From Pseudomonadota bacterium (lineage in GTDB: Bacteria; Pseudomonadota; Gammaproteobacteria; Burkholderiales; Burkholderiaceae), in the NCBI GenBank assembly GCA_029777935.1, contig JAKORH010000358.1, positions 1 through 8,028 of the forward strand: DNA of 8,028 nucleotides, given 5' to 3'. The notes under the pieces are model-generated. The model did not search any database. It saw only the letters and a program-made list of their open reading frames with translations, and was not told the DNA's origin. The translations under genes were made by a program, and so were the position numbers. Positions 6,777-8,028 of this stretch are shown here, piece after piece. Positions within the stretch are counted from its first letter, which is position 1. Each line of letters starts with the position of its first letter.

Positions 6777-6779
6777 TCT

Positions 6780-6815
6780 CCCCTCTCCCTTTGGGAGAGG
6801 GGCCGGGGGTGAGGG
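6780..6815. repeat. C/T-G/A hairpin repeat, copy D
   Basis: CCCCTCTCCC at 6780-6789 and GGGAGAGGGG at 6793-6802 form a perfect 10-bp stem with a TTT loop, then CCGGGGGTGAGGG to 6815. It starts three bases after the oxidoreductase stop codon. The position suits a transcript-end or mRNA-protecting hairpin, but no T-run follows the stem. Confidence 0.8.
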
Positions 6816-6841
6816 ACGGGCTTCAGGGTTTTCACCGGCTG

Positions 6842-6879: not shown

Positions 6880-7010
6880 CGACGGGGAGTAGCGCGGGAC
6901 TCGCCTCACGGTCCCGCTGCGATGTCGTCAATACGGCGATGTGATCGCGCAGGCGCACGATCCATCGCCCGGCGTCGCGAGCCGGTAACGCCGGCGCGCC
7001 AGACCGAAAG
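6880..7010 (+). promoter_or_regulatory. yybP-ykoY (manganese) riboswitch aptamer
   Basis: The conserved segments occur in the right order: GGGGAGTAGC at 6884-6893, TCGTCAATA at 6925-6933, CGG at 6970-6972 and GCCAGACC at 6998-7005. The helices fit. P2 is GCGGGAC (6894-6900) with GTCCCGC (6911-6917). P3 is TGCGATG (6918-6924) with CGTCGCG (6973-6979), including G-U pairs, with the TCGTCAATA/CGG internal loop. Its distal part is GGCGATG (6935-6941) with CATCGCC (6963-6969). P4 is GCCGG (6981-6985) with CCGGC (6991-6995). P1 is weak: CGG (6883-6885) with CCG (7004-7006), plus CTC/GAG further out. In bacteria this Mn2+-sensing class often precedes alx/terC/ykoY genes and turns them on when manganese is high, exactly the gene found downstream here. 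Assignment is by recall of the consensus, not by a covariance search. Confidence 0.85.
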
Positions 7011-7081
7011 AGCGACAACTCCAACCCCGCGGTCCGCGCCTGGCCATACCAGAACCTATCTCAGAGTCCCCGATGGATCGC

Positions 7082-7184
7082 GTTGCGACGAGAAGCCGGC
7101 GGATGCTAGGCGGCAGGCGCAGGACAGTAGCTCGGCCTACGGCCAAGCCTGCCAACGACGCAGACGCCGGCTTATCGTCGCAAC
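7082..7184. repeat. Internal hairpin arm 1 of the element
   Basis: The 19 bases at 7082-7100 (GTTGCGACG..GCCGGC) pair with 7166-7184 with a single mismatch (G7092/A7174). Nested within are GGCAGGC (7112-7118) with GCCTGCC (7147-7153), and a terminal GGCC-TAC-GGCC hairpin (7134-7144). The arm is thus stem upon stem to its tip. Confidence 0.85.
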
Positions 7185-7192
7185 CCTCCGGG

Positions 7193-7291
7193 GCGGGGTC
7201 GCATTGGGCGCATAACGTTGTTGCGGCTCGGGTCCTTGCATCAGCAATGGTCCCCTCGCCGCGCCTAGTTCTGCGCCCAGTGCGACCCCGC
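7193..7291. repeat. Internal hairpin arm 2 of the element
   Basis: The 20 bases at 7193-7212 (GCGGGGTCG..GGGCGCA) pair with 7272-7291. The only non-Watson-Crick position is T7204/G7280, which would be a U-G wobble in a plus-strand transcript. The tip carries TTGC-ATCA-GCAA within less regular pairing. Confidence 0.85.
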
Positions 7292-7324
7292 CGCGCCCAC
7301 CGGGGACTCTGAGATAGGTTCTGC

Positions 7325-7329
7325 AGAGG
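7325..7329 (+). promoter_or_regulatory. terC ribosome binding site next to the element border
   Basis: AGAGG lies 8 bases before ATG 7338 and starts two bases after the last base of the element's right terminal arm (7323). A folded terminal stem would sit directly against this site. Confidence 0.7.
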
Positions 7330-7337
7330 CAAATCCC

Positions 7338-8028
7338 ATGACGTCCGTCGGCACGCCGTCGCTGTGGTCGCTGTTTGCGGCGTTCGTCTTCGTCGCGCTG
7401 CTGGTCGACTTCCTGGCGCTGCGCAAGCAGGGCGCGCACAAGGTGTCGATGCGCGAAGCGGCGCTGTGGTCGCTCGTCTGGGTCGCGGTGTCCTTCGCGT
7501 TCTGCGGCTGGTTGTGGTGGTACCTCGGCGGCACACAGGGCAACGCGGCCGCCGGCGCCAGGGCGCTCGAATTCGCGACCGGCTACCTGATCGAGAAGGC
7601 ACTCGCGGTCGACAACATCTTCGTGTTCCTGATGCTGTTCACCTATTTCGCCGTACCGGCGGAGTTCCAGAAGCGCGCGCTGATGATCGGCATCCTCGGC
7701 GCGCTCGTGCTGCGCGCGGTGATGATCCTGATCGGCGCGTGGCTGATCGCGCGCTTCGACTGGATCCTGTACGTGTTCGGCGCGTTCCTGCTCTTCACCG
7801 GCATCAAGATGTGGTGGGCCGCCGGGCAGGAGCCCGACCTCGAAGGCAACCCGGCGCTGCAGTGGCTCCGCCGCCACCTGAAGATCGCGCCCGGCTACGA
7901 CGGCGAGAAGTTCTTCACGCGCGTCGACGGCGCGCGGATGGCCACGCCGCTCACCGTCGTGATCCTGCTGATCGGCATCGTCGACATCGTGTTCGCGGTC
8001 GACTCGATCCCGGCGATCTTCGCGATCA
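7338..8028 (+). CDS. TerC/Alx-family integral membrane protein (partial, runs off the window)
   Basis: The frame is open from ATG 7338 to the window end and gives 230 residues of a family usually about 300-350 long. Hydrophobic segments lie near residues 8-28, 43-62, 90-106, 116-137, 143-160 and 204-229. The family signatures are LIEKALAVDNIFVF at 84-97, with E86 and D92, and VFAVDSIPAIFAI at 218-230, with D222. These acidic membrane residues are the conserved metal-site candidates of TerC proteins. Alx/YkoY-type members act in manganese export or in metal loading of exported proteins. The yybP-ykoY riboswitch in the leader supports a manganese-linked role, so this is probably an Alx-like Mn2+ exporter rather than a tellurite-resistance protein. 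The C-terminal third is not in the window. Confidence 0.92.
   Translation, partial: MTSVGTPSLWSLFAAFVFVALLVDFLALRKQGAHKVSMREAALWSLVWVAVSFAFCGWLWWYLGGTQGNAAAGARALEFATGYLIEKALAVDNIFVFLMLFTYFAVPAEFQKRALMIGILGALVLRAVMILIGAWLIARFDWILYVFGAFLLFTGIKMWWAAGQEPDLEGNPALQWLRRHLKIAPGYDGEKFFTRVDGARMATPLTVVILLIGIVDIVFAVDSIPAIFAI

Follow-up and report, generated by a model that had tools for sequence, protein, structure and literature searches.

The 274-bp block at 7050..7323 of the window (the whole 8,028-nucleotide stretch of DNA analysed here) is, as sequence comparison indicates, a mobile element and not an RNA gene, and it belongs to a family of about 268 bp that shares one architecture, terminal inverted repeats and freely varying stems. 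Transposition itself is read from comparison. In kind the element is a MITE. The explanation that we favour, and regard as highly probable as a whole, joins four parts: a MITE, an IS5-type DDE transposase acting in trans, a conserved core of inverted hairpins, and stems that are kept matched by template switching.

Anatomy of the window element and its place before terC

The features discussed below are as follows.

7050..7323, no strand assigned: whole element of 274 bp, a fold-back MITE copy with no recognised gene (from its pairing, its fold, its absence at the corresponding site of L001 and an 87% identical relative in G007)
7050..7076, + strand: left terminal inverted repeat, the 5' side of closing stem P1, with a GAACCTATCTC-type end (from its complementarity to the right end)
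7082..7184, + strand: arm 1, consisting of a stem of about 20 bp, an apical hairpin and an internal loop in which AGGCG and CAACG are conserved
7185..7191, + strand: junction mini-hairpin CC-TCC-GG, two pairs (from the fold and the family alignment)
7189..7295, + strand: arm 2, the module of arm 1 in the opposite orientation (from pairing, fold and arm-to-arm scores)
7297..7323, + strand: right terminal inverted repeat, the 3' side of P1 (from pairing with the left end)
7325..7329, + strand: AGAGG, a putative ribosome-binding site of terC, lying just beyond the element
7338..8028, + strand: terC, TerC family membrane protein, running off the window (PF03741, E 1.4e-34)

The two ends (7050-7076 and 7297-7323) are complementary at 26 of 27 positions. 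Arm 1 (7082-7106 with 7160-7184) is paired at 22 of 25 positions and arm 2 (7189-7216 with 7268-7295) at 25 of 28; in the shorter cores originally delimited, the counts are 18/19 and 19/20, the exception in arm 2 being a T-G pair. The lower end of arm 2 overlaps the mini-hairpin at 7189-7191, which represents an alternative pairing. The + strand of the element folds at -194.5 kcal/mol, compared with -114.9 +/- 4.8 for 200 dinucleotide shuffles (z -16.5), and the - strand is about equal to it (-196.8 kcal/mol, z -14.9). When the 8 kb were scanned with a 274-base frame in 50-base steps, the element was the most structured place (-192.6); the next reached -152.5, and the mean was -125.5. Even when as many as 3 mismatches are tolerated, the 19-base end sequence has no occurrence in the window beyond these two ends. 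The true boundary of the unit may lie 1-2 bases inside 7050, because its relatives begin at (A)GAACC. Four mechanical frames of 92-246 aa overlap the element, none of them with a Pfam family match, and no Rfam family reached its cut-off. The original prediction of three near-perfect stems, no gene and no recognised RNA family was borne out.

The element sits directly before the putative AGAGG, and the start codon of terC follows 14 bp past its end; an effect on terC is possible. Upstream of the element, the terC leader carries GGGGAGTAGC (6884-6893) and GTCGTCAATACGG (6924-6936). Among five other terC leaders, this pair is the same in L001 and L009, nearly the same in L014, and absent in L005 and L007. 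An Rfam search of the 6884-6936 region returned no riboswitch. We take the pair to resemble a variant of the manganese-sensing yybP-ykoY leader; if it is such a variant, the element would therefore part the sensor from its gene. Two further repeats were noted in the window. One is another palindromic repeat at 2070-2141 (translation ..VIPAQAGIQ../..SHLRGNDT..), with an inverted match to L001 at 78%. The other, at about 6778-6816, is a CCCTCTCCCTTTGGGAGAGGG-GCCGGGGGTGAGGG repeat after a quinone-reductase-like gene, and it is missing at the collinear place in L001.

A search with the terC protein gave L001 as the nearest relative; it comes from a metagenome-assembled Pseudomonadota genome (G001) and encodes a TerC that is 90% identical. 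Its DNA is 82-90% identical to the window and collinear with it in order, apart from some additional segments, and the block is missing: the terC leader continues straight to the start codon. Five other places in the same genome are occupied by family sequence: a related copy of 337 bp, two copies of about 270 bp that are more distant, and a pair of solo closing stems. Among 61 relatives, a match at E<=0.01 was found in 9 and a match below 1e-10 in four (G001, G007, G027 and G051), with G007 containing a full-length relative of the window element at 87% identity. A BLAST search of plasmids, phages and E. coli genomes with the window copy found nothing. No target duplication is visible around this copy (flanks CCA / TGC). 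Exact matches to GAACCTATCTC in G001, G007, G027 and G072 (n=13) included no insertion-sequence end among the 6 of 13 loci read, and the DUF4096 transposase of G001 has no matching ends. Since neither a target duplication nor a partner in the closest relatives was found, the window copy may be old and immobile.

The dispersed family, its target sites and its candidate transposases

Copies of the family were found well beyond the closest relatives. At the level of the order, 42 of 300 genomes matched at E<=1e-4 with another G001 copy as the query; with a consensus query at 1e-6, 37 of 369 genomes matched in the class and 29 of 398 in the phylum, where all three counts include G001 and two candidates were scored per genome. 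Inverted-repeat extraction from the loci, under script length limits of 240-300, yielded 43 members, 36 of which measure 266-275 bp. Exact end patterns gave 11 pairs 267-281 bp apart and one of 233 bp in 6 of 10 genomes chosen for having copies, and the other exact matches in those 10 genomes were unpaired or short palindromes. Twenty further class-wide matches comprised 12 units of 266-273 bp with a closing stem of 24-35 bp, one unit of 298 bp, two shorter ones (194 and 213 bp), three one-arm or contig-end cases, and two loci (L346 and L362) with no unit above threshold. The AGGCG and CAACG motifs are conserved in the internal loops of the family. In all 32 aligned members, arm 1 aligned with the reverse complement of arm 2 outscores arm 1 aligned with arm 2 directly (means of 48.0 inverted vs 41.0 direct; shuffled 41.4). 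We read the interior as a conserved core, in which two like hairpin modules lie inverted inside a long closing stem, and not as a deleted insertion sequence.

A search of viral contigs and genome contigs with the exact end patterns gave zero matches, probably because the ends differ by lineage. When two other members were compared with plasmids, one gave nothing and the other gave one match of 44% coverage in an Azotobacter plasmid. Shortened forms also exist: three copies in G357 are missing 94 bp, most of arm 1 among them, and one copy in G350 is missing 53 bp; there are also solo stems (33-55 bp) and 20-bp palindromes. The deletion derivatives and solo stems fit the template-switch biology of fold-back DNA. 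A longer member of 409 bp (L125:1301-1709) carries an extra, strongly folded insert of roughly 140 bp within one arm.

Evidence of recent movement came mainly from the genus of G211, in which 26 of 34 genomes matched at 1e-15; many of the copies there are full-length (268 bp) and share 93-100% identity with the query. Flank comparison covered 71 distinct places (90 loci, 19 places being fetched twice), and one place was common to two genomes at the sensitivity used. In this genus, the core is flanked by TA on each side in 36 of 47 close copies, while among 30 diverse members a duplication of TA, TAA, TTA or TGA was seen in 16 and none in 14. At site G211:C1:5367532, a copy is present at the same place in G330; 13 sister genomes are uninterrupted across the join, two stop short of it, and 17 of 34 gave no match. 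Alignment of nine empty sites placed TA at the target in 8, the clearest being GCAC-TA-GGGTAG. In a comparison bearing on whether insertions avoid genes, joined sites lay in a long open frame in 29 of 52 cases, as against 240 of 400 control positions in this GC-rich DNA. BLAST comparison of some 39 family members with 80 terC loci gave one match, a partial one in L029. The original prediction had offered a non-autonomous mobile element as one possibility, had proposed a sequence search for copies and empty sites, and had regarded confinement to terC leaders as counting against it. The search found dispersed copies and the empty site of L001, the copies lie at places other than terC leaders, and the TA-type duplication, together with the IS5-family-like ends of relatives, agrees with that possibility.

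In three relatives' genomes (G211, G082 and G051), the outer 13-18 bp of the family copies are like the ends of resident IS5-family elements. G211 contains an 828-bp element with DUF4096 and DDE_Tnp_1 frames, named IS5 family in NCBIfam, whose ends are AGGGTCTGTTTACATT...AATGTGAACAGGCCCT; against the local 268-bp copy, the right end agrees at 16/16 positions and the left end at 14/16. Presumably this partner insertion sequence belongs to the IS427-like group of the IS5 family. In G082, the right end of an 829-bp element (AGGGTCTGTTAACAATTA) agrees with the local AGGGCCTGTTAACAATTA at 17/18 positions, and the left end fits less well. In G051, one end of an element of about 859 bp (GAAGCTGTTTTAA) agrees with the local GAAGCTGTCTTAA at 12/13 positions, with TAA on either side. 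A DUF4096 transposase was present in just 4 of 12 family-bearing genomes. An IS5-type element also occurs in 12 copies in G211 (L219), and the script did not delimit its ends. The enzymes that move the family are probably those of ordinary IS5-type insertion sequences, the matching ends being the basis on which we infer the transposase. A DDE transposase of the IS5 family (DUF4096 + DDE_Tnp_1), supplied in trans, would recognise the outer 16 bp or so and insert the element, in double-stranded form, at a TA-type target.

Within one class, the same core of about 270 bp stands behind the unrelated ends GRGCCTGTY, TAGTGTACTGCG and TACTCTTTCAAGG. For the TAGTGTACTGCG ends, 30 loci gave pairs spaced by 180 and 270 bp, with no pair as long as an insertion sequence, and a limited look for a corresponding transposase found none; a transposase was matched to the IS5-type ends alone. 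Because the same core stands behind unrelated ends and near-identical copies change both ends together, the three-way-junction core might be an old mobile unit that persists across Pseudomonadota and re-tailors its ends to the available transposase, a new end being template-switched to the other side; we consider this extension speculative and rather unlikely. Genome G446 contains many copies, both full and shortened, whose ends differ from the IS5 type: the pattern TAGTGTACTGCRCC gave 106 matches (<=2 mismatches) vs 15 for a reversed control, and the matches listed include 11 pairs with a spacing of 268-272 bp as well as pairs spaced by about 180-194 or 72 bp.

Coupled change in the stems and the competing explanations

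In the alignment of 32 members, 90.9% of the cells pair and 93 of 105 pairs vary on both sides. The covariation score is 0.632, compared with 0.177 when shuffled and at most 0.121 with slid partners; because the structure line came from the very sequences being scored, the slid controls are biased in its favour, but the gap is large. The mini-hairpin (helix 5) is paired in 98% of its cells, with both pairs almost invariant, and is therefore not covariation evidence. Individual changes can be followed in the 47 close copies, whose identity to the reference is 91-100%. Closing-stem pair 17 is C-G in 22 of them, A-T in 12, T-A in 12 and G-C in 1, with no mismatch. On a tree of the interiors, this pair underwent 16 changes, every one of them on both sides, while interior positions on the same tree averaged 0.54 changes with a maximum of 10. 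At pair 24, both intermediates and the double change are present. Pair 17 (e.g. L128:1495 with L128:1730) lies just inside the 16-bp transposase-like end and is hypervariable; the neighbouring pairs 18-22 are unchanged in the 47 copies.

At the sole site common to two genomes, the interiors of the G211 and G330 copies are mutually inverted and are identical at 263 of 268 positions once one is inverted; the flanks are 89% and the elements 98% identical. The inverted interior comes from one site, where an independent later insertion is possible. For inverted repeats, the passages of PMC8604942 that bear on the matter report that template switching gives homogenisation of arms and inversion of the spacer, and those of PMC8794818 report that it maintains stems. 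The coupled stem changes and the one inverted interior suggest that template switching keeps the arms matched. Each strand can fold into a three-way junction with the mini-hairpin at its centre, and, with less certainty than the other steps, during replication or repair of such fold-back DNA a polymerase may switch templates (quasipalindrome correction) and copy one side of a stem onto the other; the stems would therefore stay near-perfect while their sequence drifts. Such switching would also make the interior invertible in place, and loss of an arm would leave solo palindromes of 20-55 bp. Recombination between copies could likewise change both ends together relative to the tree of interiors.

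The strongest rival accepts the same mobile element and attributes the paired stems to selection on the fold, for example for cruciform extrusion that joins the ends. Selection on the fold is possible as the keeper of the arms, and we give this reading an appreciable chance while not preferring it. Architecture and length persist in genomes sampled over the whole class, the internal loops with their AGGCG and CAACG motifs have not been erased by homogenisation, and closing-stem mismatches other than that at pair 23 each occur in 1-3 of 47 copies, as if mismatched copies spread poorly. However, the coupled changes at pair 17 include transversions and have no mismatch intermediate in the 47 copies, and a G.T mismatch at pair 23 has spread nonetheless. 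The closing stems of the close copies contain more G.T than A.C mismatches (17 vs 6), and 10 of the 17 are this one mismatch, common to copies in G333, G350 and G353; correction is therefore incomplete, and mismatched copies do spread.

An ordinary MITE, formed by internal deletion of its insertion sequence, is improbable as an account of the family. Its ends do resemble IS5-family ends, and such a derivative exists, a 268-bp sequence on a Cupriavidus taiwanensis plasmid (L396:601-868). However, the 8 best matches between one G211 insertion sequence and the family cover terminal stretches of 16-29 bp only, and the three-arm fold is absent from the Cupriavidus derivative (-94.6 kcal/mol). It is an ordinary MITE of an IS5-family element, and its equal length is apparently a coincidence.

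A dispersed structured RNA, either an sRNA or a cis-regulatory leader that is incidentally multi-copy, was the other possibility named in the original prediction, and it now appears very improbable. The very stable fold, the strong covariation and the location of the window copy in a terC leader would suit it, as would the excess of G.T over A.C in arm 1 alone (14 vs 5) and in the closing stem of the close copies, where most of the excess is the one common mismatch. However, selection on an RNA would be expected to enrich G.U in all the stems, and the stems of 40 members contain 36 G.T and 43 A.C mismatches, with 47 of other kinds. By helix, the G.T to A.C counts are 18/22 in the closing stem, 14/5 in arm 1 and 4/16 in arm 2, and the opposite biases of arms 1 and 2 agree with a single DNA module present twice in inverted orientation. 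In addition, both strands fold equally well, the copies lie at varied sites with TA duplications and empty sites, and zero Rfam families exceeded the cut-off (best scores of 27.2 bits vs a cut-off of 124, then 25.1 vs 89). Two sub-threshold Rfam microRNA matches reflect the hairpin shape.

Least probable of all is a unit that moves as a folded single strand, a mode which the original prediction had also entertained and which here would be of the IS200/IS605, REP/RAYT or integron attC type: the extreme hairpin content and the pseudo-symmetric arms with conserved unpaired bases would suit it, but the family has terminal inverted repeats in common with DDE insertion sequences, target duplications and a DDE-type partner, features which are unexpected in those systems and which point to ordinary double-strand transposition. 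IS200/IS605 and REP/RAYT elements by definition transpose without target duplication, and membership in these groups was rejected on the TA duplication in close copies and the TA at 8 of 9 aligned empty sites.

Relation to known systems and significance

The preferred reading, a MITE with a conserved fold-back core, places the family close to several known systems. The window element is short and geneless, its terminal inverted repeats match at 26 of 27 positions, copies are dispersed and empty sites exist, and for its relatives in G211, G082 and G051 the respective genome was found to contain an autonomous partner that shares their ends. Like IS5-family MITEs, the family is short, geneless and dispersed, with terminal inverted repeats resembling those of resident IS5 elements and a TA-type duplication. 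It differs in that its interior is a conserved inverted hairpin pair near 268 bp, not the remnants of an insertion sequence, and in that its stems vary through coupled changes. Eukaryotic Foldback elements are likewise long self-complementary mobile DNA, but they differ in hosts, transposases and arm anatomy.

For the QMITE-type MITEs of Coxiella, the description consulted in PMC10969869 likewise has a single strand that folds into a stable structure, but with direct repeats of 7-9 bp, where we found TA or TNA, and that part of the description mentions no three-way junction conserved across genomes. The REP/RAYT palindromes, in the sections of PMC3733652 that describe them, are also dispersed palindromic DNA whose dimers may form hairpins or cruciforms, but they are units of 20-40 bp tied to a tyrosine transposase, whereas the family described here measures about 268 bp and has terminal repeats and a target duplication. 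No earlier description of the three-arm family was recognised in the literature at the level of titles and abstracts, ISfinder and subscription papers aside, and a name for it may exist. As a kind the element is a MITE; in the literature consulted, its conserved inverted-hairpin core, near-constant length, differing ends and coupled evolution were not found described.

Prokaryotic MITEs have mostly been described as shortened insertion sequences; the three-arm family instead keeps an elaborate self-complementary architecture, with a length that hardly varies over many genomes while the sequence drifts. Strong covariation alone does not show an RNA, as 93 of 105 pairs covary here in what is likely mobile DNA. 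The family offers many naturally replicated stems in which homogenisation by template switching can be measured against selection on pairing. As the two halves of each arm tend to change together, it lends itself to studying how mirror-image sequences in DNA are kept in agreement.
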